Below, one piece after another: positions 2,399 to 60,940 of a stretch of DNA of 64,000 nucleotides. Where the stretch lies: contig CAIIXF020000004.1 of the NCBI GenBank assembly GCA_903813345.2, positions 10,050,196 through 10,114,195 of the forward strand, in the 5' to 3' direction. Both the position numbers and the translations under genes were made by a program. The DNA comes from Owenia fusiformis. Lineage: Eukaryota; Annelida; Polychaeta; Sabellida; Oweniidae. The notes beneath the pieces are model-generated. The model did no database searches. It saw nothing but the letters and a program-made list of their open reading frames with translations, and was not told where the DNA came from. Position 1 is the stretch's first letter; each line of letters opens with the position of its first letter.

Positions 2399-5300
2399 CT
2401 AATAGCGTTCCAGAAGTCAACCAAAACTCCATGCCAACTTTATCAAACACATCTTGTGTGGCTCGCAATATCTTCCGCGCCTTATTAGCAGCTCTGTTTG
2501 CTTTCACTATGGCCGCTTTTGACAGTTTATTGGCCGAGTTAAATTGATCAGCTCTTGTCTGGTTACAAGGGATAAACTTGGAATGTTCTAAACTGGAGAG
2601 ATACTTGGAGGTAGATGCTGGTACATACAACCCAGGGATGGCACTCTTAGTCACAGCAAGACTGAAAATATTACAAGCGATAAACTTGAAATGTTCTAAA
2701 CTGGAGAGATACTTTGAGGTAGATGCTGGTACATACAACCCAGGGATGGCACTCTTAGTCACAGCAAGACTGAAAATATTACAAGCGATAAACTTGGAAT
2801 GTTCTAAACTGGATAGATACTTTGAGGTAGATGCTGGTACATACAACCCAGGGATGGCACTCTTAGTCACAGCAAGACTGAAAATATTACAAGCGATAAA
2901 CTTGGAATGTTCTAAACTGGAGAGATACTTGGAGGTAGATGCTTGTACATACAACCCAGGGATGGCACTCTTAGTCACAGCAAGACTGAAAATATTACAA
3001 GCGATAAACTTGGAATGTTCTAAACTGGAGAGATACTTGGAAGTTGATGCTGGTACATACAACCCAGGGATGGCACTCTTAGTCACAGCAAGACTGAAAA
3101 TATTACAAGCGATAAACTTGGAATGTTCTAAACTGGAGAGATACTTGGAGGTAGATGCTGATACATACAACCCAGGGATGGCACTCTTAGTCACAGCAAG
3201 ACTGAAAATATTACAAGCGATAAACTTGGAATGTTCTAAACTGGATAGATACTTTGAGGTAGATGCTGGTACATACAACCCAGGGATGGCACTCTTAGTC
3301 ACAGCAAGACTGAAAATATTACAAGCGATAAACTTGGAATGTTCTAAACTGGAGAGATACTTGGAAGTAGATGCTGGTACATACAACCCAGGGATGGCAC
3401 TCTTAGTCACAGCAAGACTGAAAATATTACAAGCGATAAACTTGAAATGTTCTAAACTGGAGAGATACTTTGAGGTAGATGCTGGTACATACAACCCAGG
3501 GATGGCACTCTTAGTCACAGCAAGACTGAAAATATTACAAGCGATAAACTTGGAATGTTCTAAACTGGAGAGATACTTGGAGGTAGATGCTTGTACATAC
3601 AACCCAGGGATGGCACTCTTAGTCACAGCAAGACTGAAAATATTACAAGCGATAAACTTGGAATGTTCTAAACTGGATAGATACTTTGAGGTAGATGCTG
3701 GTACATACAACCCAGGGATGGCACTCTTAGTCACAGTAAGACTGAAAATATTACAAGCGATAAACTTGAAATGTTCTAAACTGGATAGATACTTGGAGGT
3801 AGATGCTGGTACATACAATCCAGGGATGACACTCTTAGTTATAGTAAGACTGGAAATATTGGGAAAGTAGAAATCCTAGCCTTGCCCAAGTCGGTATTTT
3901 TTACTTATCTGATCTTGAATTATTACCGCCTTGTACAATCCAATACACCTGCACTGATATTATGCAGAGTTATTCAACGGTTTCGAGATTTCCATAATAC
4001 GCTATCAGGGGTATCGCGAAACCTTATTGATTAACAGATATACGCGTGGACACGACGTGTGACTTCAGGCTGATTGACCAATCAAAACGTTATCAGGTTG
4101 ACCTGCATAAGCAAAGCAATCTTCCCGATTTGAAATTCAATGATCTGATCGATCGTTTTTTTAGAGTTACAATATATTATGTAATTAAATGTACATAGGA
4201 AATATAAGAGTCATTAATATAAATTAAATCATGCAATAGATTTAAAACTGATTTGGCGATGAAAATACAAGACCGAGTCCAATGTAGCGGGTCATGTAGT
4301 CGATCACTGATTGAATCTCAGCCTACATGTTCATTTGAATTCAGCGATCGTTTCAACGTTTATTGTTGAAATCTTCTCACCTCCGGTTACCGATCGATGC
4401 TCCGGCATCCACTAAACTCTGATTGATATTTATCTGATAAAATATTTGTATTTCCATGATGAATTCATGCAAGATTTGTTCGTGAAAAGTCCCGGCGAAA
4501 AGTAAAAAGTGTACTTGTTTTTGACCGTGCATAATAATGAGCTAACGCTGCAGGATCGTTGTTGATTGGTCAAATTTTACCGACATAAACATTGAGTCGG
4601 TAAAGCACATGGCTTTCTCTTTGGTACAAGGCGGTCATAATAGAAATCAAGATAGTAAAAGAGACCGACTTGGGCAAGGCTATAGAAATCCCTGAATGCA
4701 ACTTATTGTCAGTTTTTTCTAAAGGACTAGTATTTAGATGGCAAGAGATTTTGGACAGCTGTATTTTTGGTCATGGGTATTTCCCGACCATACAATGAAC
4801 TATATTAAAACAATATCTTGACTTCAACAAAAGTGCATGAAAAAAAATAAAAATCTCATTTTAATAATGAGATTAGCCATGGATTAGTAACCCACCTCCT
4901 CACTTTTTCAATAATGTTGACCTTATATTGAAAAAGAGGACCGTGATTTTCAAAGTTTCTGTGCAAAATTAGATTGCAACATTAGTTATAAATTAGCGAG
5001 CAAACATTTATCATTACAGCCAGTTAGCAGGCTAAGAAGCAACTGAAGGGAGCATAGACCAGAACACGTGTCTGGGAATGACATCTGTCATAGATAAGGC
5101 CAGCCCCCTTGACAAATGCTTTGTAGGTTTAATGTTAGAGGCTGGCCCTATCTGAGACGATCTGTTGCTGCATAATTTAAATCAAGTTTAATTAATTAAA
5201 CTTACAAGTAATCTCATATATAGGAAAATTGGATTGATATACTATCTTCAACACAAATAGATGGCAACACAGTGTCATAATATCTGGTGTTATATTTGGA

Positions 5301-8300: not shown

Positions 8301-11076
8301 GTCAGTCAATGTTATTATATTCATGCCTCATTGGATACTCTGGTATTGAATTAAATCCCCTCGCATAAATAATGGATTATATTGGTTTCCCATGACCTAG
8401 CAAACTGTCATGCATTCATTAGCTGTCAACACATACATACATTTACAAATGTTCCTTCATTAATGCATCGATTTTCTCAAAGATGGCAGATGGGTAAACA
8501 GAACTTTCAAAGATGGACAGGGCGAACTCCATAACATGGGATTTCCCATTGGATAATCCTTATCCCATGTAACTTTCATATTAACTTTTCAATCCATATG
8601 CCCTTATATGAAGTGAATGCTACCTTACAGTGTAATCTTATATTGCAAAAAAATATGAAAAATCATGGTCATCTTTTTCAGTAATAAGGTCAATATTATT
8701 GAAGGTAGCTTACTAATCCATGGCTAATCTCATTATTAAAATGGGATTTTTATTTTTTCATGCACATTTGTTGAAGTCAAGATATTGTTTTAATATAAAA
8801 TGTTCATTGTATGGTCGGGAAATACCCGTGACCAAAAATACAGCTGTCCAAAATCTCTTGCCATCTTAATACTAGTCCTTTCTTGAGAAATTAGTACATA
8901 TAGGCAACTGAATGATTTTATTGAGCGTCATAAAATTTTGTAACTTCAACAATTCGGTTTCAGAATTTTTTTCGACATTCATGGCTATTCTTACTTTTGT
9001 AGAGAACATCAGAAAAGCTTTAGAAAATGACAAGTACTTAATTGGACTGTTTCTTGATCTTTCTAAAGCATTTGATACTTTCAATCATGGTATTCTTTTA
9101 GAAAAAATGATTTTTTATGGAATAAGGGATAAATCCCTTAACTTCTTGCAGAGTTATTTAGAAAACAGAAAACAAAAAGGTTTTTATAACCATGTTTTCT
9201 CTGAAACAGAATCAGTGTCATATGGTATTCCACAAGGTTCTGTCCTTGGTCCTCTTTTGTCCATTATTTATGTAAATGGTATATACTTGGCAGTGACTAC
9301 TCTAAACCCCGTTATTTTTGCAGATGATACGAATGTTTTAGCACATGATTCTTGTATTGACTCTCTTGTAGAGAATCTTAACCAGGAACTAGTTACTCTT
9401 GATGAATGGTTCAGATCAAATAAACTAAACTAAACAAGAAAATTCAGTGAAAAAATTCAGAATTTTTTCACTGGATTTTCTCGTTTTTTATACATTTTAC
9501 AAAACAAATCTTCTCACAAGTCTATTCTAGGCACATAAGTGCACTTTTTTGCAAACCTGGAAGATGTAGACAATGTGGGGAAGGAGTAATTCTTGTTTGA
9601 AAAATGACATGTGACTCAATTGAGGAATGCAGACAATTTCCCAACATGCACCCTGGCCTTAACATTTACACCTTTTCTCGATGCAACTATACTCACTTAC
9701 CTTTGAAATGCAGCTGGGAAACGGATGCTTCCCACTGGCGGGCGTTTCTTGGCTGTTGCCTCATCTGTTAAGGGCCCTATCCAGTAATATCTACCGTGTC
9801 TGTTATATATTATGGCTATGTGAATCCACTTGCTGATAGATGGCACTGATGTCGTTAAGAATATATGGTTGACATTCTGGTCTCTGTCTTTTACGACTGT
9901 TGTGTGGTATTTGTTACGAGATAGAGTGCGAATGAATGTCTCCTATAATAGAAAATTAATGGCTAGGGTGAGGTTGGACTTATTCTAGAATAGGAAACTA
10001 CTGGTAAGAGCGCTGTAGAATTTCTCCATTAATGGGAAATCACTGTCTAGAGCGCTGTAGGATTTCTCTAATGGAAAATTATTGACTACAGCGCCAGTAC
10101 AGGCTAGAACGCTGTAAGCCTTATAGAGCGTTAAAATTTCTCCTATAATAGAAAATTACTGACAAGAGCGCTAAGGAATTTTTCCTGTCATAGAAAATTA
10201 CTGGGAAGAATGCTAAAGAATTTCTCTTACATTAATGAAGGGCATTTACAGTACAGTTTACGTACATACTGTTGTAAACAAAATTCAAACATAACTTAAA
10301 CATTTCAAAAGCAGCTCACGTGTATTCTTACCAATTTAGTTCCAGCCAAATCGTCACGATTGATGCCATAGGAGACAATGGCTTTGTTGATGAGGTCCTC
10401 CTTCAGGTTATGTGTTGACACCATGCTGTTGTTGATTATGGTCGGGTCCAGAAGGATCAGAGAGATGTTATAGATGGCACTGAGTGATATGAATTGTAAT
10501 TGGAGGTTCAATGTGGCGTTAAGGAGTGTGGTTTTATTGGGCGAGAACGATTCTGTTGTGGACGATATCTGCAAAAACAAAATAACTTACCATTAATGAA
10601 TATTAATCACTTTTTTGTTGGAGAGAATCTTTAATCTTGAGTTTTTTTTTAAATTTGAATGGAGTAATTTCGAGACATTTGAATTTGGTTATCTATCAAA
10701 TTTATATCCACATAAATGTAGATGCACTTCTAATATGAATTATTTTAAAGATCACCATGCCAGTTGTTTTATGACTGCATATCTATTTATTTTTGGAAAC
10801 TGTAAACTGTTGATTTAATTTGTGTGTTGACCATGTATCAAGAGTGGTTGAATAGTGACGATCATTTGAGGCATCTTGGGTAGTTCTTTGCCGCTAACAT
10901 CTGCCTACCTGGTTTGCATGTTTGTAATATTTGGACATTCTTGGTCCGACGATCTTAGTCCCAGTATTTTCTGTCTTCGACTGCAGGTATAGTACGATGG
11001 CTGCAATCATGAACAGCAGAAGGAGTTTCTTGTTTAGTCGTCGTGCTATATATCCATCCATCATACCAAGGCGCAT
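2399..11076 (-). CDS. Fukutin-like LicD-family protein, gene 1 (partial, 3' exons off window)
   Basis: Four exons are read on the minus strand. Exon 1 is 11076-10909: 56 codons, a short cytoplasmic tail and a hydrophobic signal anchor (about residues 18-32) implying a type II Golgi/ER protein. Exon 2 is 10568-10332 (237 bp), exon 3 is 9942-9701 (242 bp), and exon 4 ends at 2399. Exon 4 begins at 2661 if the innermost 3' splice site is used (263 bp), or at any of eleven further sites up to 3849. Phases join cleanly (0, 0, 2, 1). Exon 4 ends in FWLTSGTLLG, the start of the fukutin/LicD nucleotidyltransferase domain, which in fukutin transfers ribitol-phosphate onto O-mannosyl glycans. The catalytic WYRQC/DVD exon and the C-terminal exon are not in the window; the gene either continues off the left edge or is truncated. 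Exons 2-4 match gene 2 in length; exon 1 is 9 bp shorter. Confidence 0.85.
2563..3849 (-). repeat. 108-bp minisatellite that repeats the exon 4 3' splice site 12 times
   Basis: Units of exactly 108 bp (36 codons) carry, in minus-strand order, AATATTTTCAG, then the first ~80 bases of exon 4, then ~20 bases leading to the next AATATTTTCAG. Candidate acceptors fall at 2661 + 108k for k = 0 to 11, the last at 3849. The minus frame is open through all units and matches the exon frame; each encodes a 36-residue block containing YVPASTSKYLSSLEHSKF. Unit variants (H/F before KF, L/K, G/C/D changes) recur in blocks, a sign of recent higher-order duplication. The plus strand is also open for 430 codons, but that is a by-product of the repeat. 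Confidence 0.93.
3868..4691. mobile_element. MULE-like foldback element with 9-bp target-site duplication
   Basis: The element spans 3877-4682 with inverted ends TAGCCTTGCCCAAGTCGG / CCGACTTGGGCAAGGCTA, homology continuing inward for about 70 bp. It is flanked by the direct repeat TAGAAATCC at 3868-3876 and 4683-4691. A 9-bp duplication with long inverted repeats is typical of Mutator-like elements. No transposase was seen. It sits about 20 bp upstream (minus sense) of the outermost exon 4 splice acceptor. Confidence 0.85.
5090..5155. other. Hairpin around GATAAGGCCAGCC / GGCTGGCCCTATC
   Basis: ATAGATAAGGCCAGCC is followed about 35 bases later by GGCTGGCCCTATCTGAGA, giving a stem of about 13 pairs. 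Probably a small foldback repeat; no function is inferred. Confidence 0.5.
5710..6148. mobile_element. MITE with ~27-bp inverted ends
   Basis: AAAATGGGTTAGTACAAAAC at 5710 is mirrored by GTTTTGTACTAATCCCATTTT ending at 6148, with ATGGCAC continuing the match on both sides. The interior is AT-rich with repeated ATGGCAC motifs. No clear target-site duplication and no ORF. Confidence 0.72.
6274..7047. mobile_element. Mariner-like MITE, TA target site
   Basis: The element is 6276-7045 with ends CAGGGCGAGCCAATAAAGGTAACC and GGTTACCTTTTTTGGCTCACCCTG, flanked by TA on both sides. It is 770 bp long and has no transposase. The two overlapping ORFs of about 100 codons here are translations of the element. 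Confidence 0.85.
7345..7510. repeat. Degenerate ~27-bp minisatellite
   Basis: About six imperfect copies of the phrase AGTAGCTCTTGTGGTATTACAATGTCAG, diverging at the 3' side. Intron 3 of fukutin-like gene 1. Confidence 0.75.
7619..8273. mobile_element. Mariner-like MITE with ~140-bp inverted ends
   Basis: CAGGGTGTCCCGAACGTATGG at 7621 is mirrored by CCATACTTTCGGGACACCCTG ending at 8271, with TA on each side. The inverted match continues inward through TATGTGTCATATATCATTTTAA and the ATCATGGTT region. 651 bp, no transposase ORF; a poly-G tract lies near the right end. Confidence 0.9.
8912..9433 (+). pseudogene. LINE reverse-transcriptase fragment (non-LTR retrotransposon)
   Basis: An open stretch of 173 codons contains FLDLSKAFDTFNH, YGIPQGSVLGPLL and FADDTNVL, the diagnostic blocks of a non-LTR retrotransposon reverse transcriptase, including the catalytic ADD. 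Just upstream, near 8955, QFGFR is readable only in a different frame, so there is at least one frameshift. Fingers, endonuclease and thumb regions are missing. This is a decayed fragment inserted in intron 3 of fukutin-like gene 1, not an active element. Confidence 0.9.
9440..9660. mobile_element. Half copy of a palindromic MITE (full copy at 53370-53790)
   Basis: AAGAAAATTCAGTGAAAAAATTC through TTTCCCAACATGCACCCTGGCC matches one arm of the palindrome at 53370-53790. It ends where homology with intron 3 of fukutin-like gene 2 begins (AACATTTACAC at 9659 and 27077). Confidence 0.8.
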
Positions 11077-19200: not shown

Positions 19201-22200
19201 TGCGAGTATGTATAATAGAATATGCGAGTACACCCCAAATAGGTCAACTCAGCTGAAATGTAGTTTATATAAAGAAAAATTAGAAAAACAACATCTCAAA
19301 CATCTTGTTTAGTTTATAAATCACGTACATGTACATGTTTCAATCAATTTTTGTAAAATTCAAAATAATTTTTCGGCCTGTTTATGCCACAATCGCACCC
19401 CCCTGACTGAAAACCGAAACATTTTTGGCCTCGCACCCCCCCCCCCTGACTGAAAGCTTGCTACGCCCCTGAGTGGTATACCCAACCTAGTTCAATCCTG
19501 TTGAAATGTAATATTCATATAAAGGTATGAGTAGTAGAATAATGCACTATACCCCATCTATCTCAGTCCTGTTGAAATGTTAATATACAGGTATAAGTAG
19601 TAGAACACTGCGGTGGTATACCCCACCTAGTTCAACCCAGGGTTAATTAGGTGTCGATGGAAGAAAAACTCAAAGCCCAACCATATATGTCAACTTTATT
19701 GCAATTGATGACTACAGTGACATAAACATCAGGTAAAGCAAAAATTGACAATGGACAAAGGACAATGAAATATTAATATGGATTCAGTTGCAAAATGTAA
19801 AGATTGAAACATCCCTGCAAAATGTTGGCGAGACAGCTGCCTCGTCTGCCCAACAAGTGGCAACGCCCATGCCAGGCTTGTTTAAACGCCCATGTCTGGC
19901 TAGTGGAAACGTCCATGCCTGGCTAGTGGCAACGCCCATGCCTGGCTTGTTGAAATACCCATGCCTGGCTAGTGGAAACGCCAATGTATGACTAGTGGAA
20001 GCGCCAATGTCTGGCTATTGGAAACGCTCATGCCTGACTAGTGGAAACGCCCATATCTGGCTAGGGAAACGCCCAGGCCTGCCTTATGGAAACGCCAATG
20101 CATTGCTAGTGGCAGCCCCCATGCCTGGCTAGTGGAACCACATATGCCTGGTTACTGGAAACGCTCATGCCTGGCTAGTGGCAATGCTCATGTCTGGCTA
20201 ATGGCAACACCAATGCCTGGCTAATGGCAACGCACATGCCAGACTAGTGGAAACGCCCATGTCTGGCGAGTACCAACGCTCATGCCTGGCCAGTGGCAAC
20301 GCCCATGCTGGCTGGAGGAAACGCCAATGTCTGGCTAATGGCAACACGCATGCCTGGCTAGTGAAAACGCCCATTCCAGGCTAGTGGCAGCACTAATGCA
20401 TTTTAGCACGAAACCCCAAGAAACCCCAATATTTATTAACTACTAGACATTTCCCTTTGTTTTCCTGTCAATGTTGAAGAATCCAGATTCAATACAATTA
20501 AATAAAAGTCGTGCTATTATGTCTTCAATCAGACTGTAATTAAATTGAATTTATTTGTGATGGCAGCATTATTTGTATACGTGTCCCATCCTTGAAATGC
20601 AAATATAAATAATATATTGTGAAATAGTTCATTGAAATTATTTTCAATTGATCTTTGCATTTGTTGAGTACAATTACTTCATCCTACCATTTGACACAAG
20701 CCAAGGCAAGAAACTTCTTTATATGACAACGAGACCCAGAATTTACTGAACACAGCTGGCTCAAACTTCTGTCAGCTCGGTAGAGTAACCCAGAGGTAAC
20801 CGATAGGGGGGAAGGTTGCAATTAGGTCTTTGTAATTCTTGTTTGTATGTGGACTTTTGTCAAATTGTGGATTTGTCTGGCTTAAGATGCATCTAATCTG
20901 GCCCGGTAGCTCAGTTGGTTAGAGCGTCGTGCTAATAACGCGAATGTCGTGGGTTCGATCCCCATCCGGGCCATACTTTTGGTTTGACTCCATAATGAGC
21001 GACTTGGGTATCATTCGCTTATTCAACTGCCGACTGACGAATTAACCCCTATTTTATGGCCAACTCACTTAAATATGAATAGTCACACATTCTCGAATTT
21101 CAGGTCCATTTCGAGGTTTGGACTTTTGAAGAAATACAAAATCCATTGTTTTACATAGGAATGTCGATTTTCAAAAATTCATCAGATTTATCAATTTTTG
21201 ACATATTGTAATTGAGGAAAAAATTTGGAAAATTTGGAGGCATTGGAAATTAAGTCAAGTTACATTCCCATAAATATTATAAGTATTTTCTTCACAGGTT
21301 ATGTAAATGAAAATTCCAACACGTAGTTCAATGAGGGAGCTAAGGTTGCCAAACTTATGGAGGGGAGTGTACCATTTGACACAGGCCAAGGCAAGAAACT
21401 TCTTATTCTCAGAATATGAAAAATTATGTTTGCACTTTTGTTAAATTGTAAAGTTGTCTGGCTTTGATTGCATCTAAGCCGGCCCGGTAGCTCAGTTGGT
21501 TAGAGCGTCGTGCTAATAACGCGAATGTCGTGGGTTCGATCCCCATCCGGGCCATATTTTTGGTTCGACTCCATAATGAGTTTGCTCAACTGCCGGCTGT
21601 CGGCTGACGAGTTAACCGTTATTTCATGGCCAGTACCTGAAACTTTTCATATCCATAGGCCTATTAGAATTAGGGTTTCCTACAATAGCGGTTAATCCGT
21701 CAGCCGACAGCCTGCTTTTGAATTCGCGAATGCTCGCTTACATGTAGAGATTCACTAGTTTTGTCCAAATGTTTCAATTTGCATCAGATTATGAAAGGTT
21801 TGGGGGATTATTCTATGATTTAAACACTTCGATCATTATTATAATGTTGTCCAACCATTACGTTTCATTAATTCAAATGGTGAATATTCAACTTAATTAA
21901 AAATCATTTCTGGCACATCTAAGATACCCCGATCACCCTACATAAGTCGCATTAACAACAACAATATGCCAACCCGTTACCAAGGCAACTACCCTAGACG
22001 TGACAACATACCTGGATAAAACCTGTTCGTATGCCATAAGTCGTAATCGTTATTGTATACATCCAATGCAATAGTACCACCTTTTGCCAATAATTGACAC
22101 TTATTGTTAGTATTCGATTTTCGGAAATTGAATTGAGTGCAGTCCTTCGTTGATGCGCAATAAGTTGCGCAGTCGTCAACTGTCATGAATGGCATCTCAT

Positions 22201-22321
22201 GTGTTACATTTAGAGCCATGGTGTTTCTATATGGATAGAATGCGTGTCCAAATGAAAAGTCCAACAAGGTGTGGATATATGTTAACCCGAAAATGATCGA
22301 ACAGACACAGTTCTTAATCAT
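13217..22321 (-). CDS. Secreted PAN/Apple-WSC domain protein, three exons
   Basis: Exon 1 is 22321-22012 (310 bp): a hydrophobic signal peptide (about residues 1-27), then a PAN/Apple-like module with DDCATYC, CTQFNF and CQLLAKGG. Exon 2 is 19252-19139 (114 bp) and encodes the first half of a WSC domain (YLGCTRIF...LTIQRCVDHC). Exon 3 is 13377-13217 (161 bp) and encodes the second half (KYAGAYEG, CLCGD, GCTIPC, EICGG) and the stop. All introns are phase 1. The joined frame is 585 bp, 194 residues; eight WSC cysteines are present. WSC and PAN modules bind carbohydrate or protein ligands, so a secreted lectin-like role is inferred. A further exon in the long introns cannot be excluded. Confidence 0.82.
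13556..14797. mobile_element. Mariner-like element ends CAGGGTGGGCC (nested)
   Basis: CAGGGTGGGCCAAAAAACC...TACCCAAGTTTAA at 13556 is mirrored by TTAAACTTGGGTATCGG...GGCCCACCCTG ending at 14797. 1242 bp without transposase. TA is present on the right side but is TT on the left. It lies inside the 13403-15320 element and contains a poly-G MITE remnant near 13600-13680. Confidence 0.8.
13780..13850. other. Palindromic hairpin with CCGAAGGCC loop
   Basis: ATAAGAAATAATACACCGAAGGCCG faces GGCCTGAGGTTATTATTTCTTAT, a near-perfect stem. Similar hairpins with GGCCG/CCGAGGG centres occur at 11905-11960 and 17395-17560. Confidence 0.7.
16193..16537. mobile_element. ATGCGAGTAG-ended MITE, copy 1
   Basis: Starts AGGTGCGAGTAGAAATAATC and ends CATACTCGCATCTG. 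It shares CTTGATTTACGTCATTAAA, GCCACCTGGTGG and GGTAACTAC with copies at 40082-40507 and 44373-44795. This copy is shorter because of an internal deletion. No ORF. Confidence 0.88.
16660..19041. mobile_element. Nested inverted-repeat complex including a mariner-like element
   Basis: Inner element 16832-18451 has ends CAGGGTGGTCCAAAAAATTG and TTTTCTTGGACCACCCTG with TA on both sides; inverted homology continues for ~140 bp (GCACCAAAATTTTACTGAG). A second foldback lies at about 18515-18835 (TCCGAACCTTGTTGGAAC mirrored by GTTCCAATGAGGTTCGGA). Outside both, ~90-bp arms at 16675-16765 and 18946-19040 (GTATCGATA, TTCTCTTAAACCA) are also mirrored. No intact transposase. The complex lies in PAN-WSC intron 2. 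Confidence 0.82.
17395..17560. other. Near-perfect long palindrome with GGCCG centre
   Basis: TTCAGGATATTGGGATTATCCC at about 17412 is mirrored by GGGATAATCCCAATATCCTGAA near 17503. TTGCCCGAGGGCCGCAGGTCCCGAGG forms the centre, and ATTATCCTATA / TATAGGATAAT close the outside. It sits inside the mariner-like element and is a MITE-like hairpin. Confidence 0.82.
19044..19475. mobile_element. Poly-C/poly-G MITE remnants
   Basis: Pieces ending GGCTACATGCCTG (near 19100) and GCTTGCTACGCCCCTGAG (near 19470) with C-runs and CCTTGGC or CCTGACTGAAA phrases belong to the CAGGCCCGTAGCC family (better copies at 32425 and 56115). They flank WSC exon 2 of the PAN-WSC gene on both sides. Confidence 0.65.
19860..20405. 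repeat. ~23-bp minisatellite (ATGCCTGGCTAGTGGAAACGCCC)
   Basis: About two dozen imperfect copies of a 22-24-bp unit containing ATGCCTGGCTAGTGG and AACGCCC. It lies in intron 1 of the PAN-WSC gene. The ORFs seen across it on both strands are repeat translations. Confidence 0.92.
20406..20899. other. AT-rich spacer upstream of tRNA-Ile copy 1
   Basis: No ORF or domain. A block beginning TACCATTTGACACAAGCCAAG (20685) recurs as TACCATTTGACACAGGCCAAG at 21370, ahead of the second tRNA. Each tRNA gene thus travels with duplicated 5' flank, though spacing to the tRNA differs by about 100 bp. Confidence 0.6.
20900..20973 (+). tRNA. tRNA-Ile (AAT), copy 1
   Basis: The cloverleaf is readable: acceptor GGCCCGG/CCGGGCC plus discriminator A, D arm GCTC/GAGC, anticodon stem TCGTG/CGCGA around loop CTAATAA (anticodon AAT, read as IAU), and T arm with GGTTCGATC. 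There is no intron. Box A and box B promoter sequences are internal, and a T-rich terminator follows (ACTTTTGG). It lies in intron 1 of the PAN-WSC gene, opposite in strand. Confidence 0.96.
21481..21554 (+). tRNA. tRNA-Ile (AAT), copy 2
   Basis: Identical in sequence to the copy at 20900-20973, 581 bp downstream, with TATTTTTGG as terminator. Flanks are partly shared (GGTTCGACTCCATAATGAG downstream), so it is a tandem duplicate. Confidence 0.96.
21590..21720. other. 27-bp inverted repeat downstream of tRNA-Ile copy 2
   Basis: GCCGGCTGTCGGCTGACGAG near 21593 is mirrored by GTCAGCCGACAGCCTGC near 21701, with GTTAACCG / CGGTTAAT extending the stem; the loop is about 70 bases. A weaker single copy follows tRNA copy 1 (CTGCCGACTGACGAATTAAC). 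Probably MITE-derived. Confidence 0.7.
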
Positions 22322-23400
22322 TTTTATAAATTTTCAGAATGCTTTGTGTACAGAGTTATCGAATCATTTCCTTATGTCTTGGTACCGATGTTCATCCGGA
22401 TTATTTGAAATCGCCACCGTATGATTTCTAATTCCCAAACACCAATGTACCTCTTGATCTTTTGATGAGTGATTGCGAAATCAACAACATAAGTATCCTC
22501 ATGCCAAAATAACGTTGCAGCTCGCAGTTCATTTGCTAAATCTGTTAGACCAGTTCTGTGTTTTGAATATGATCGGCTGATATCGAAGACGTTGCTAATG
22601 ATCTAGATCTCCAGATCAAATTAATGAAGTGCACGAGCCCGAGGAATGGGAAAAGCATATAAAAACACAATGTAAGATTGCTGATATTGAAACATTCCTT
22701 CAATAATTTTCTAACAACACGAACATTGACCATTGTATTTCCTGCAATTAAACGCAATTTGCAACATTGTTCTATTACTTTGACACCATAATTCACTTTT
22801 GACACTGACACTAATCGAATTAATCAGACACGAATGTGATGTTTTAATTGTCATTATATAATATTACTGACATCTTTCTCAATTTTGATATTGAATAACA
22901 AGTTATAATTATGTTAAGTTGTTATAATTATATTGTTAGTCTCAAACTTTTTTTGTGGACGGTGATTGGCGGTTGGTGTCCGACGTCTGTAACAATGTTC
23001 GGCGTTCGGCGTCTGTAACAAATTGCAGGTGGTGACATTTTGCATGCTAATGCCTTGTAATTACTCAATTACGCCAGAAACTATCAATTTGGTTATTCAG
23101 TTAAATCATTCACTTTGTTGAATGGTCATTTCTTCTTATGATTTCTTCCGACCAATTAGTAAGGGTGACATGACATGCCGTTAAGACTATTGGAATGAAG
23201 ATTCATCTCTGCTACGTAATGGTGGTCTTACTTGGGACGATGCAAGTTAACCCCCCTCCCCCCTTGGCCGGCTTTATGCATATTTCCTACTTGTTAGTAT
23301 CGGGAAACATCAATGGACGTAGGCTGTTCCAAAAGGATGTTCAGGTTGCTATACTTTGGGAGGGGAGTTGTAATGAGTGATTAAACTAAAACCTAGGATG
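22322..23400. other. Intergenic region between the PAN-WSC gene and fukutin-like gene 2
   Basis: It should contain the promoter of the PAN-WSC gene and the 3' UTR of fukutin-like gene 2. An 88-codon minus ORF (22811-22545) shows no recognisable domain and is not called. A CGACGTCTG / CGGCGTCTG duplication lies near 22980-23010. Confidence 0.5.
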
Positions 23401-23409
23401 AATCCTAGA

Positions 23410-26400
23410 CTAAAATATTCTCTTTCCGTTATTTCTAAATCGTTGTACAACTTCTCTCTTTTCTGATTCTGCAAACTTTCCTGCTTCAACCATATTTGGT
23501 GCAGATCTGTCCCAGGCCCACTCTTTGTCAGGTTGCATCCAATTAGGTCCATACTCAGCTTCTATAATAGCTTGAGTGTTACATGGCACAAGGTAGAGAT
23601 CATTGAATAACTCAGCGGAACAGAGGGGTATATCTCGAGGATAAATCCATCGTACTTTTTCTAGTGTCTTAAAGCGCAAACCACCGGTCCACGTGTACTT
23701 GGTCTCTTTATAGTGGAAGAATATATCCAACTTGATACCGAATCCTCGAACTGCCAACTCAAAGCCATCTTTCGGCTGAAAGGTAAAACGGAACTTGAAC
23801 CGAAAGTGATTAGTGATTAGTTTCATTTCAGTACAAATGCCTTATGCCTATAATAACAGGGTTCAGATCAACCAATGAATTTGGGCTTTTGAAAATCAAT
23901 CTAGGCCTCTATCAAATCCCCTAGCATAGGATTTGATCAGATTAACCAAATCAGAAACTGACCATAGTCAAGTTCTGACAATAACCTGGTCGCTTAAGCC
24001 CAGCATATACTAACCACTTGTCCCATCGAGGGCTTTGTATAAAAAGCCTCCTACCTCATACCCACCTACCCACGTACGTGGGACATGATACAGTCCTTGA
24101 AGGGTTCAATTTTAAAAATATTAACTTTTAGTTTATGATGAATTATAGATGAATTAATGCACCCATATGCCTTTATTTATGGATCGGTCATGTCTTAAAG
24201 TAAAGCAGGAATTGCAGAAATGTTAATAATTTGAGCTTTTTAATTTGATTTCATGTCTGCTTTTGATTTCTGGAAATGTTTTTTTGTTGATCGGCAGTCT
24301 GGCTTTGTATAAAAAAAACTCTTACACACTTACGTGGGTCTTTTGAGGATGCAATTTTTTTTAAAGATTATTCATTCTCAGTTTATGCTTGATTATAGAT
24401 GCATTAATGCACTCGTCCCCTATGCCTTTATCTATACAATAATAATAAAGCCGAATTACAGAATTGTTATTTGAGAAATTTTAATCGTTTTGTCAAAATA
24501 ACGCAATCAATTTATTTTATATCCAAGGTTAATTAAAAGTGTATAGGAAAGTATGACGCAAAGGCTATTAAGGGATCGATCATATTTATACGATCGATAG
24601 AAAAGGCAGGATGTGTTGTAAGACTGCCCCATAAATCATTTCGAAAAATCAAAAGCAGACCTGAAAACAAAAATAGCTAAAATTCATGAAACTAAAGGCA
24701 CAGTGTAAAATACAGCCGATAAAATGGCTCATTTTTCAGGCTTTGGAGTCGATTCTACTTTCGAAATATGCCCCGAGAACTATGTATAAAGGTCCATTCA
24801 AAATTGAACTTGAAAAGCCATATTACATAATACTGAGGATTTAAAGTTGTATGCGACAACTTTCAGCTCATCTTTACTAAAATAGACCGGAAGTGAGTTT
24901 TCGAGTCGAGTAAATGGTGATACTGTAATGTCCTTTTATGAAGCGGGGAAGAATCCATGGCAAAATCTAAATAATTGAAATATTCACACACGGACGTCAC
25001 AGAACACACCTCCGGTTTTATAATCGATAACTTTTCAGTCAAAAAATATTTTTATGAATATCGCTAAATTACAAAAATAGGTAGGGTAAAGAATATGTTA
25101 AAATCGTTTCATCTCGTCCCAGAGGCAATGTTTTGTCACTTGTATCTCCCTCAGAATTCCTCATTAAACATTTCCGGTTTTATTTTATGACTAGACAGTT
25201 GACAGATCCATAGATAAAGGCATATGGGTGCATTAATTCATCTAAAATTCAACATCAACTAAGATTTAATAACTTTTAAAAACGAACCCTTCAAGGACTG
25301 CATCATGTCCCACGTACGTGGGTAGGTGGGTATGAGGTAGGAGGTCTTTTATACAAAGCCCCCATCGAGTCCCACGATGTCCCATGGGACCTCGTTATCC
25401 TTGCCCCCTTGAAGTCCCACTATGCCTTATCGAGTCCCATATTTTCATTCTCGATTTGGCTTCGTGGGGCTCGATCGGGGACTCGATGGGGAATGACGAC
25501 GCAAAGTTCCACGGACTACCATGGAATCCCATGAAGTCCCACGGAGTATCATGGGGCAAAACCTCATTAAGTCCAAAGAGATCCCACGAAGTCCCATGCA
25601 ATATTGATTCTGTGGAGGTCCCACAGTGCTCCATTGATTGGTGTATGTTGGGTTTCAGTCTCACCTTGCCATAGCGGTGCATGATTCTGATTGGTTGCCC
25701 CGGGCGATGAAGAAGTTTTTCTAGGTCAGGAATAAATTCTGTGATCCATGTCCCCACATCTACATCAGTAGTGTGCGCGATGAGACCACACTGTCTGTAC
25801 CAGCCTACAAAAAGTCAAAATGTTTGTACGAATGTACAAATAAAGCTACACTGTTTGTACCAACCTACAAAAAGTCATAATGTTTAATTGTACAAAATTA
25901 CAAATAAAGCTACACTGTCTGTACCAGCCTACAAAAAGTCAAAATGCTTGTACAAATGTACAAATAAAGCTAAACTGTTTGTACCGACCAACAAATGTCT
26001 ATCTGTACACATTGTCACACTGTCTGTACCATTCTCAAAATAAAGCCACACTGTCTGTACCATCCTATAATTCAGACATATTGTCCATGTCCTTCTAAAC
26101 CACCATCTGTACCATCTTTAAATTTATAAAAACATATTATTCAATTCCATAAATAAAGCGAGGCCGTCTTTAACTTCCTACATATACTCGCTGTTATATA
26201 GTTACATCAGACACATAAAGTCACAATTTCTACACCATTTTACATATAATGCCTTACTGTTTAATTAATGTGTATTGTTACTCTGAAGTACAGTACCTAA
26301 TAGCGTTCCAGCAGTCAACCAAAACTTCATGCCAACTTTATCAAATAAACCTTTTGTAGCTTGCAAGATATGCCGTGCTTTGTTAGCAGTAGCGTTTGCT

Positions 26401-28690
26401 TCCACTTGGCCCGCTTTTGACAGTTTATTGGCCGCGTTAAATTGATCAGCTCTTGTCTGGTTACAAGGGATGAACTTGGAATGTTCTAAACTGGAGAGAT
26501 ACTTGGAGGAAGATGCTGGTACATACAATCCAGGGATGACACTCCTAGTTATAGTAAGACTGAAAATATTACAAGCGATAAACTTGGAATGTTCTAAACT
26601 GGAGAGATACTTGGAGGTAGATGCTGGTAAATACAATCCAAGGATGACACTCTTAGTTATATAGTAAGACTGGAAATATTTGAAAATTAGAATATGCGAG
26701 CTTATTATGTAATGAGGGCAGGCCAATCAATTTGTGTTTATTCATACTTCGCAGGGAGGATTGGCTCCCTGAATGCAACATCGATATTCTGTCCCATATA
26801 TGGTATGGTGTCCTTTTACCTTATTTTCACGTGACAGCTTCCAGAAACATGTCACATGTAAAAGGTCAAGGTCAGCATACCATATATGGGACAGAATTGG
26901 ACAGACTATCGATACTACATTCTGGGAGCCAATGAGAAGAGATTTTTTACAGCGCTTTTTGACAGTTTTGTCAAAAAATCATGCGACCTCCGCTCCCCCT
27001 GGCTAAGGGGCCTGCACAGTGTCCTGGATAGACCCCATCCCTGGTGGGTCTAATGATTCATTACGTCTAGGGTATTAACATTTACACCCACTTTTCTTGA
27101 TGCAACTATACTCCACTCTACTATACTTGCATTTGGTGTTCATGAGCAACCCATTTGGCTTATTAGTAATGATTATGTATTTGTTTTTATTTGTCTGTTC
27201 CTTATTCATGGTTTATCGGATGAATGTTAGATGTAAGTAAGGCACTTTCAAAAACATACTAAACAATACAATTAGACAAACAAAGTATCTTATGCATTTC
27301 TAGGTGTTAGGTATAGTAGAGTGACTCACTTACCTTTGAAATGCAGCTGGGAAACGGATGCTCCTCACTGGCGGGCGTTTCTTGGCTGTTGCCTCATCGT
27401 TTAAAGGCCCTATCCAGTAATATCTACCGTGTCGGTTATATATTATGGCTATGTGAATCCATTTGCTGATAGATGGCACTGATGTCGTTAAGAATATATG
27501 ATTGGCATTCTGGTCTCTGTCTTTTACGAGGGATATGTGGTATTTGTTACGAGATAGAGTGCGAATGAATGTCTCCTATAATTGAAAATAGATAGCTAGG
27601 GTGACGTTGAACTTATTCTACAATATGAAACTACTGGTAAGAGCGCTGTAGAATTTCTCCTTTAATGGGAAATCACCTAGAGCGCAGTAGGATTTCTCTA
27701 ATGGAAAATTCGCGCTAGTACAGGCTAGAACGCTGTAAGCCTTATAGAGCGTTAGAATTTCTCCTACTATAGAAAATTACTGACTAGAGCGCTAAAAAAA
27801 TTTCCTGTTATAGAAAATTACTGGGTAGAATGCTTAATAATTCCTCTTACATTAATTAAGGGCATTTACAGCACAGTTTACGTTCATACTGTTTTAAACA
27901 AAGTTCAAACATAACTTAAACATTTCAAAAGCAGTTAACGTGTATTCTTACCAATTTAGTTCCAGCCAAATCGTCACGATTGATGCCATAGGAGACAAGG
28001 ACTTTGTTGATGAGGTCCTCCTTCAGGTTATGTGTTGAAACCATGCTGTTGTTGATTATGGTCGGGTCCAGAAGGATCAGAGTGATGTTATAGATGGCAC
28101 TGAGTGATATGAATTGTAATTGGAGGTTAGATGTGGCGTTTAGGCGTGTGGTTTTATTGGGCGAGAACGATTCTGTTTTGGACGATATCTGCAAAAACAA
28201 AATAACTTACCATTAATGAATATTAATTACTTTTTGTTGGAGAGAATCTTTATATTTTCCAGTTTATTTTTTAATTTGAATTTGGTTATCTATCAAATTT
28301 ATATCCACATAGATGCACTTCTAATATGAATTATTTTAAAGAGCACCATGACAGTGTTGTTTTATGACTGCATATCTATTTACTTTTGGAAACTGTAAAC
28401 TGGTGACTTAATGTGTTGACCATGTTTATCAAGAGTGGTTGAATAGTGACGATAATTTGAGGAATCTCGGGGAGTTCTTTGAGACTGGTGACATCTATCT
28501 AGCACCTGCCTACCTCGTTTGCATGTTTGTAATATTTAGACATTCTTGGTGCGACGATCCTAGTCCCAGTATTTTCCGTCCTCGACTGCAGGTATAGTAT
28601 GAAAACTGCTATCATGGACAGTAGAAGGAGTTTCTTGTTTTGTCGTCGTGCTATATATGAAGCGTATCCATCCATCATACCAAGGCGCAT
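23410..28690 (-). CDS. Fukutin-like LicD-family protein, gene 2 (complete, six exons)
   Basis: Exons on the minus strand are 28690-28514, 28188-27952, 27575-27334, 26559-26297, 25804-25665 and 23775-23410. All have GT-AG junctions and phases 0, 0, 2, 1, 0, giving 1425 bp, 474 residues; human fukutin has 461. Residues about 20-36 are a signal anchor, so a type II Golgi protein is expected. LILLDPTII (exon 2) and YYWIGPL (exon 3) fit the N-terminal stem domain. FWLTAGTLLG then WYRQCGLIAHTTDVDVG (exons 4-5) are the catalytic core, with DVD as metal-binding acidic pair. KLDIFFHY and WAWDRSAPN (exon 6) fit the C-terminal part. Fukutin adds ribitol-5-phosphate to alpha-dystroglycan; the substrate here is inferred only. 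Intron 5 contains nested transposons. Confidence 0.93.
23994..25657. mobile_element. PIF/Harbinger-like MITE split by a nested MULE-like element
   Basis: The left end AGCCCAGCATATACTAACCA (23997) resembles the inverse of the right end TGGTGTATGTTGGGTT (ending 25654). The interior carries CCCATCGAGTCCCACG, GTCCCATG and CCATGGAATCCCATGAAG phrases like the cleaner copy at 61301-61613. Flanking TTA/TCA fits a degraded 3-bp site. The right end lies within about 10 bp of the exon 5 splice donor of fukutin-like gene 2. Confidence 0.7.
24022..25369. mobile_element. MULE-like foldback element with 9-bp target-site duplication
   Basis: The element is 24031-25360, starting GGCTTTGTATAAAAAGCC and ending TTTTATACAAAGCC, flanked by the direct repeat CCCATCGAG (24022-24030 and 25361-25369). 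Inverted arms extend about 160 bp, including CCCACGTACGTGGG and CATATGCCTTTAT / ATAAAGGCATATG. A further partial copy of the left arm lies near 24300-24440. No transposase ORF. Confidence 0.87.
25804..26100 (-). repeat. ~60-bp minisatellite copying the exon 5 3' splice site
   Basis: On the minus strand the true acceptor of exon 5 is TTTTTGTAG followed by GCTGGTACAGACAGTGT. Upstream in intron 4 this junction recurs: near-intact at about 25850-25870 and 25920-25940 (TTTTTGTAG then G[C/T]TGGTACA[G/A]ACAGTGT), then decaying copies near 25990, 26030, 26060 and 26110. Each unit ends with AGCTTTATTTGTACATT. The copied exon piece encodes WYRQC. Confidence 0.85.
26470..26669 (-). repeat. Two-unit version of the 108-bp junction repeat in gene 2
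   Basis: The inner acceptor at 26559 gives the in-frame exon 4. The outer acceptor at 26669 lies 110 bp away: an extra TA changes ACTATAACTAAG to ACTATATAACTAAG, so entry there in the required phase meets TAA after four codons. Gene 2 therefore preserves a short ancestral or contracted state of the array seen in gene 1. Confidence 0.88.
26780..26915. mobile_element. Small foldback element in intron 3 of fukutin-like gene 2
   Basis: ATTCTGTCCCATATATGGTATG (26785) is mirrored by CATACCATATATGGGACAGAAT (ending near 26897), with ATCGATA and GTAAAAGG also paired. No gene copy 1 counterpart. Confidence 0.78.
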
Positions 28691-59565: not shown

Positions 59566-60464
59566 CTCTGGTCTTTTTTATGGGTAAATCACACCCAGAG
59601 GTGTTAAAGTAGATCAATTTTAATGGTCATTTAAGATAGAATCCAATAAATGGTTTAAGGGGAACATAATCACATCTTTTAGTAAATGTCAAGCTCATCT
59701 TAAAGCTTAAAGGAGTAGGTACAATTAGCAATTTCCATATTCTATTTAAACGTTGCATTAACTATCATTTCAATGACTGTGATAAAGTGCAGTGTTCTTC
59801 CAAGGATTTTTTACCAAGTGGGTGCAAAATTCTCATTTTCATGATTCAGTCCAAAGTCCAGGTCAAAATATGCCCATTTTACATGATTTTTCTCATTTTC
59901 AAGTGGGCGCAAATAAAATCTCAGGTGGGTGCAAACTTGTTTTAAAATCTCAGGTGGGTGCTGCGTCTACTTGCTTTAATGCTGGGGAGATCACTGTAGT
60001 GTCAGCTACATGACTGTGTATCATGGTCCATGCTAATTCAATTAATTTCTCTATAAACTTTGAATAAAGTGACTGATTTTCTAACATTTTTATATATGAG
60101 AAATTCATCATATGTCTGCTTGTTTATTTGTTCTCTTACTGATTTCTCTAAATTCTGTTTAACATTTAATTGAAGTGGCAGATTTTCTGACATTTTTATA
60201 TACGAGAAATTGACCATATGTCTGTTTGTTTACCTGATCTCTTACTGATTTCTCTAAAATTCTCTCCAAAATTTATATGAAGTGCCTGATTTTCTGACAT
60301 TTCTACAATTTGTAATGTTAATCATATACATGTATTCTATTTCCTTGCTGATTCCACTCTTTTCCATTCTATTTGCATTTTAAAACACAACCACTGTGAC
60401 ACATTTCCAATAAGTCTTGCATCACTGGGCTCTCTTCAGAATATAAGATAAGTGAGGAGGGACA

Positions 60465-60940
60465 TAGGGGCTTGAGGCGAGACTACCTTTAAGTCATAAG
60501 GGTTTGAGGCAAGACTACCTTTAAGCCATAAGGGTTTGAGGCACGACTACCTTTAAGTCATAAGGGTTTGAGGCACAACTACCTTTAAGTCATAAGGTTT
60601 TGAGGCATGACTACCTTTAAGTCATAAGGGTTTGAGGCAGGACTACCTTTAAGTCATAAGTGTTTGAGGTACAACTACCTTTAAGTCATAAGGGTTTGAG
60701 GCACGACTACCTTTAAGTCATAAGGGTTTGAGGCACGACTACCTTTAAATCATAAGGGTTTGAGGCACGACTACCTTTAAGTCATAAGGGTTTGAGGCAC
60801 GACTACCTTTAAGTCATAAGGGTTTGAGGCACGACTACCTTTAAGTCATAAGGGTTTGAGGCACGACTACATTTAAGTCATAAGGGTTTGAGGCACGACT
60901 ACCTTTAAGTCATAGGGGTTTGAGGCACGACTACCTAAAG
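60465..60940. repeat. 31-bp minisatellite (GAGGCACGACTACCTTTAAG)
   Basis: About fifteen highly similar copies of GAGGCACGACTACCTTTAAGTCATAAGGGTTT, the most homogeneous array in the window. Confidence 0.95.

Follow-up and report, generated by a model that had tools for sequence, protein, structure and literature searches.

The window analysed here, a stretch of 64,000 nucleotides of the Owenia fusiformis genome, carries on its minus strand two fukutin-like genes, referred to as A and B. Gene A consists of a probable exon 1 (10909-11076), which is conserved in A, B and the sister copy A' and contains a putative start codon, exon 2 (10332-10568), for which a counterpart exon is present in all six loci described below, exon 3 (9701-9942), which ends in phase 2 at the donor AAAG/GTAAGT and whose counterpart in B lies inside the FKTN_N match, and exon 4, which from its innermost acceptor spans 2399-2661 (263 nt, phase 2 to phase 1, donor TTAG/GTACGT). 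In gene B the probable exon 1 lies at 28514-28690, likewise with a putative start codon, followed by exon 2 (27952-28188), exon 3 (27334-27575), exon 4 from the innermost acceptor (26297-26559, 263 nt), exon 5 (25665-25804) with the GWYRQC...DVDVG of the putative catalytic part, and the last exon, exon 6 (23410-23775). The exon 4 donor of B reads GTACTG (26291-26296), compared to GTACGT in A and A' and GTAAGT in D, and may be weak.

The genome searched comprised 498,259,871 bases in 525 contigs, and the queries were exon 4, the repeat unit and then exons 2-6. Six close loci harbour exons 3-6, namely A and B in the same window, A' (C4 at 10.028 Mb, 24.7 kb from A), D (C4 at 1.05 Mb), and E and F (C1 at 4.65 and 4.69 Mb). 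Exon 4 counted from the innermost acceptor is 263 nt long in A, A', B and D and 260 nt in E and F, while intron 3 up to that site measures 7,039 nt in A, 6,171 nt in A', 1,883 nt in D, 774 nt in B, and 392 and 405 nt in E and F. The exon 1 counterpart is weaker in D, where no start could be assigned, and was not seen for E and F. A seventh, more distant fukutin-like locus at C1:53.33 Mb matches the group at 33-42% per exon, and its exon starts at the matching place (TTATAG/GTTTGAGGTT, compared by eye at the exon start alone); set against this locus the six form a separate group, four members of which carry arrays. All 68 genome matches of the joined B protein fall in these seven loci, with no separate processed copy among them, and, judged by their coordinates, the matches reaching across the exon 3/4 boundary represent exons, or copies of the array, that run over into the intron.

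The description of gene A as fukutin-like in the first-pass annotation is borne out by the joined B protein, which matches FKTN_N (PF19737, Pfam) at E 4.4e-9 and 36.7 bits against a cut-off of 27; its match to LicD (PF04991, E 0.057, 13.9 bits) is under the cut-off of 22.6. In the PDB, FKRP alone matches the family profile at E up to 0.01 (E 6.5e-4), over profile positions 147-192, from the end of exon 4 into exon 5. The likeness to the LicD-like transferases FKTN and FKRP consists of the FKTN_N and FKRP matches. The assignment rests on the joined B protein and not on a scan of the raw array reading frame, in which FKTN_N appears at E 2.9e-7 alongside unrelated families and no single stretch passes alone. 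All six loci carry DVDVG in exon 5, and the array lies, as first described, just ahead of the putative catalytic part.

Adjoining exon 4 of gene A on its intron 3 side is a tandem array (2563-3860; Tandem Repeats Finder: period 108, 12.0 copies, 96% matches, 0% indels, score 2414). In its 12 copies the exon sequence begins at window positions 2661, 2769 and onwards to 3849 (2661 + 108k), in agreement with the acceptor positions reported earlier. The unit proved to be, as had been proposed, a copy of the intron 3/exon 4 junction, composed of 99 nt of the start of exon 4 and 9 nt of intron end (TATTTTCAG), and eleven such 108-bp copies occupy 2662-3849 (minus strand) beyond the innermost one. 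Save for one base, the innermost copy of gene A begins to diverge from the unit only past CTTGTAA, and intron 3 of the single-copy relatives E and F ends in TTAATATTTTCAG, which the TATTTTCAG of the unit resembles. This point of departure and the intron end of E and F together indicate that the junction was copied in a single event. Sites k = 0 to 10 of gene A (n = 11) share an identical 25 nt upstream (AGTTTATCGCTTGTAATATTTTCAG), while the outermost site at 3849 has its own, different upstream sequence (ATTTCTACTTTCCCAATATTTCCAG).

Exon 3 ends in phase 2 (CAA AG/GTAAGT) and every copy restarts with T-CTT in the same frame, which is open from 3875 to 2385 (496 aa); all 12 acceptors can be translated through exon 4 without encountering a stop, in accordance with the phase, restart and open frame first described. 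The 12 in-frame sites are not, however, 12 independent facts. The copies descend from one unit of 108 = 3x36 nt, and given that this unit is open, an in-frame array has a prior of about one in three by our own reckoning.

The number of copies per array is 12 in A, 12 in A' (C4:10028174-10029361 being the stretch that corresponds to 2662-3849 of A), 2 in B and 15 in D; repeat counts given by the search tool are lower bounds. Arrays are accordingly present in four of the six loci; E and F have none, and a search of the genome with the repeat unit matches each of them once. From the outer acceptors a productive frame to the end of exon 4 is available in 11/11 cases in A' and 11/11 in A, compared to 0/1 in B and 0/14 in D; with the innermost sites included, 24 of 24 acceptors are in frame in A and A'. 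In B the single outer copy (26560-26669, 110 bp) carries a 2-bp insertion, and its acceptor reads S-L-T-I-stop, with the stop at the fifth codon. The 14 outer copies of D are spaced at 108, 109, 110 or 112 bp and contain frameshifts and stops, and each of their acceptors meets a stop ahead of the innermost copy; the AG is lost in 3 and intact in 11 of them. From the innermost acceptor, exons 3-6 are open throughout in both B and D.

The stops in B and D, together with the lack of an array in E and F, mean that only the innermost acceptor suits all sisters, and it is predicted to be the only one giving a full protein in B, D, E and F. Most likely it is also the ancestral one. Read in this way, exons 3-6 are colinear in all six close loci and yield pairwise dN/dS of 0.14-0.49 (15 pairs), although in the 8 pairs of A, A', B and D with E and F dS exceeds 1.2 and the ratios are rough. 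These values establish that the innermost-acceptor reading of exons 3-6 is under purifying selection. The identity of the innermost copies to the outgroup E (0.772-0.783) is above that of the outer copies, for which the mean is 0.729 in D, 0.753 in A with A' and 0.739 in B. Among the outer copies of D, 43 distinct variants comprise 10 synonymous, 31 non-synonymous and 2 stop changes with 9.9 synonymous expected, and these copies vary like untranslated DNA.

These observations suggest that the innermost acceptor is the one normally used and that the other copies are spliced out, although outer sites may be used to a minor extent, in A' for instance. We regard it as probable that the array is an intronic minisatellite born from a splice junction, with exon 3 joined to the innermost acceptor. 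Tandem duplication of a stretch spanning the end of intron 3 and the start of exon 4 (final 9 nt of intron, initial 99 nt of exon) would have given rise to the minisatellite, probably before the split of A, A', B and D, as all four have the same fused end. In the mRNA exon 3 would then most likely be joined to the innermost acceptor and the outer copies would leave as the tail of intron 3, the open frame being presumably incidental to the 108-bp period. Which acceptor is joined, in what order the events took place and by which mechanism are inferred.

In A and A' the internal acceptors (k = 0 to 10 in each gene, 22 altogether) share the same 25 nt upstream, which gives the innermost one no advantage in local sequence, so that position must decide. 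On established principles of splicing, a short exon that is recognised by its two ends would be entered at the copy closest to the donor of exon 4, and the innermost copy is most likely picked through definition of the 263-nt exon together with this donor. A preference for the first acceptor met after exon 3 would instead lead A' to take in the whole array. A choice by splice-site strength was considered and rejected. On an acceptor matrix built from the family's own sites, with 24 acceptors, 17 of them distinct, and hence too few to lean on, the innermost site of A, A', B and D scores 1.9, which is low compared to the other introns of the family (leave-one-out mean 8.9, range about 0 to 16). 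This score equals that of the internal sites of A and is below the 3.8 of the outermost site of D; the other values are -7.7 for the outermost sites of A and A', -2.6 for the outer site of B and 3.3 for E and F. An initial pattern search, with 2,646 and 2,671 matches against 1,214 and 1,184 in the reversed control, was uninformative.

Gene A itself is probably a dying copy. Its last exon holds an in-frame TGA (C4:10047971-10047969, outside the window) where A', B and D have CGA, and which would cut off the last 80 residues; from any acceptor of A the frame then runs into this TGA in exon 6. Among A, A' and B, the changes unique to A are 19 non-synonymous, 8 synonymous and 1 stop, compared to 5 non-synonymous and 4 synonymous in A' and 11 and 10 in B, though some of the A-only changes may come from a different origin of the 3' half of A and not from decay. 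A' is intact over the exons read.

The first-pass annotation had seen in the array a length-variable module, in which choice among the acceptors would add up to 11 blocks of 36 residues, and the sister loci speak against this proposal. In its present form the reading would apply to A', and to A before its breakage. All 12 acceptors are open in both genes, and the outer units contain a mild excess of synonymous changes (9 among the 19 distinct variants; p 0.033 if 25% is assumed throughout), which is the sole hint, and a weak one, favouring translated outer copies. The excess is not significant once the observed base changes are kept (P 0.12), and the comparison of synonymous share with D gives a Fisher p of 0.076. 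The 22 outer units of A and A' differ by 19 distinct substitutions, and with these the probability of no stop is 0.87 without constraint, from which it follows that the open array of these genes is what drift without constraint would often produce. A single-sequence fold of the array reading frame gives a regular beta-rich repeat (pLDDT 65, pTM 0.65), which would suit a translated module, but fold models of this kind are unreliable for near-perfect repeats. Furthermore, copies k = 1 to 3 of A' have accumulated amino acid replacements such as P>T, S>Y, H>N and A>T, gene A carries the TGA in its last exon, and the reading is impossible in B and D, where the outer acceptors lead to stops. Outer acceptors that make protein would predict in-frame arrays in the sisters, and since the arrays of B and D are out of frame the reading is unsupported; we consider a length-variable protein unlikely, and the idea of the array as a selected, translated repeat domain was dropped because the substitution test gives it no support (P 0.12). 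A related and distinctly unlikely version places a ladder in A', where the spliceosome would choose among 12 acceptors and yield proteins with 0 to 11 extra 36-residue blocks, while the arrays of B and D would be former ladders turned decoys. Were the outer sites of A' in use, protein length would be set by repeat number and splice choice.

The outer acceptors could also act as decoys, competing with the innermost site such that a wrong choice in B or D leads to a stop and mRNA decay and copy number tunes the output. The AG is intact in 11 of the 14 outer copies of D despite the stop after each, and 3 of the 43 D variants fall in the last 9 nt against 3.6 expected by length (our own reckoning). 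This closeness suggests that decoys are not being purged, but it equally gives no sign of selection keeping the acceptors, and a role of this kind appears very improbable. That the whole group is decaying, with unexpressed genes and an array without a role, is hardly credible: the TGA in gene A and the surplus of non-synonymous changes unique to A (19, against 8 synonymous and 1 stop) would fit, whereas exons 3-6 are open in A', B, D, E and F, with dN/dS of 0.14-0.33 in the 10 pairs among these five. The reading of the array as an intronic minisatellite, with exon 3 joined to the innermost acceptor, is thus the one we prefer.

The comparison of A and A' suggests a further property of the array. 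The two genes are about 99.1% identical in aligned stretches from upstream of exon 1 into intron 3, and their array units 1-7 differ at 2 of 756 nt. In units 8-11 the difference rises to 19 of 432 nt (about 96% identity; Fisher p 3e-7 compared to units 1-7), the innermost unit differs at 2 of 108 nt, and past units 8-11 identity is about 85-91%, with 25 of 171 nt differing in the remainder of exon 4. In this remainder A' and B differ at only 5 of 171 nt. The relatedness of A and A' therefore shifts inside the array, which is most likely a place of unequal exchange or conversion reshuffling gene halves, as judged from the two copies compared. A splice junction would in this manner have turned into an expanding minisatellite and, seemingly, into a crossover point between the halves of genes.

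Splice sites carried by minisatellites have been described on the donor side. The human IFI6 (G1P3, 6-16) minisatellite is reported to supply a single transcript with several splice sites (Turri, Cuin and Porter 1995), where downstream repeat units are described as acting as splice donors and yielding three mRNA species (PMC4526556). The array of gene A resembles it in that repeat-borne splice sites lie in one transcript, and differs in that the sites are acceptors, whereas those of IFI6 are donors of which more than one is reported to be used. In the VNTR of ABCA7 intron 18 the first two bases of a 25-bp repeat are described as the exon 18 donor site, and the intronic copies as numbering about 12 to 427, with one isoform retaining a single unit via a further donor (PMC5954066). 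Here too the splice site lies inside the tandem unit and the copies in an intron, but the ABCA7 case, as reported, concerns the donor side, a retained unit that is out of frame and a human polymorphism with RNA data, while ours concerns the acceptor side and is read from DNA. As in such splice-junction minisatellites, the splice site of the present array is within the tandem unit and copy number differs between gene copies (in one assembly), and the array may by analogy be regarded as an acceptor-side variant of IFI6 and ABCA7. A search of the open-access literature found no acceptor-side counterpart, which is no claim of absence from print. If the ladder in A' were true, it would be an acceptor-side counterpart of these minisatellites with an outcome in protein. 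With up to fifteen copies of one acceptor in a row the family constitutes a natural experiment on splice-site choice, in which the sister genes indicate the acceptor that must win for protein to be made.

Other repeats and reading frames are present in the window. A nested satellite with periods of 151 and 339-348 bp occupies 1-2180, in the intron past exon 4 of gene A, and tracts about 98% identical to it are found downstream of gene D. Within intron 3 of gene A an open reading frame of 173 aa lies on the opposite strand (8912-9433, plus strand), and by its motifs it may be a fragment of a non-LTR reverse transcriptase. An open reading frame at 21989-22333 on the minus strand contains a PAN domain (PF00024, E 3.9e-6), and a further open reading frame of 233 aa lies at 35382-36083 on the plus strand. 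Minisatellites occur at 19856-20387 (23 bp x 23.2, 75%), 46096-46797 (55 bp x 12.8, 86%) and 60463-60936 (32 bp x 14.8, 94%).
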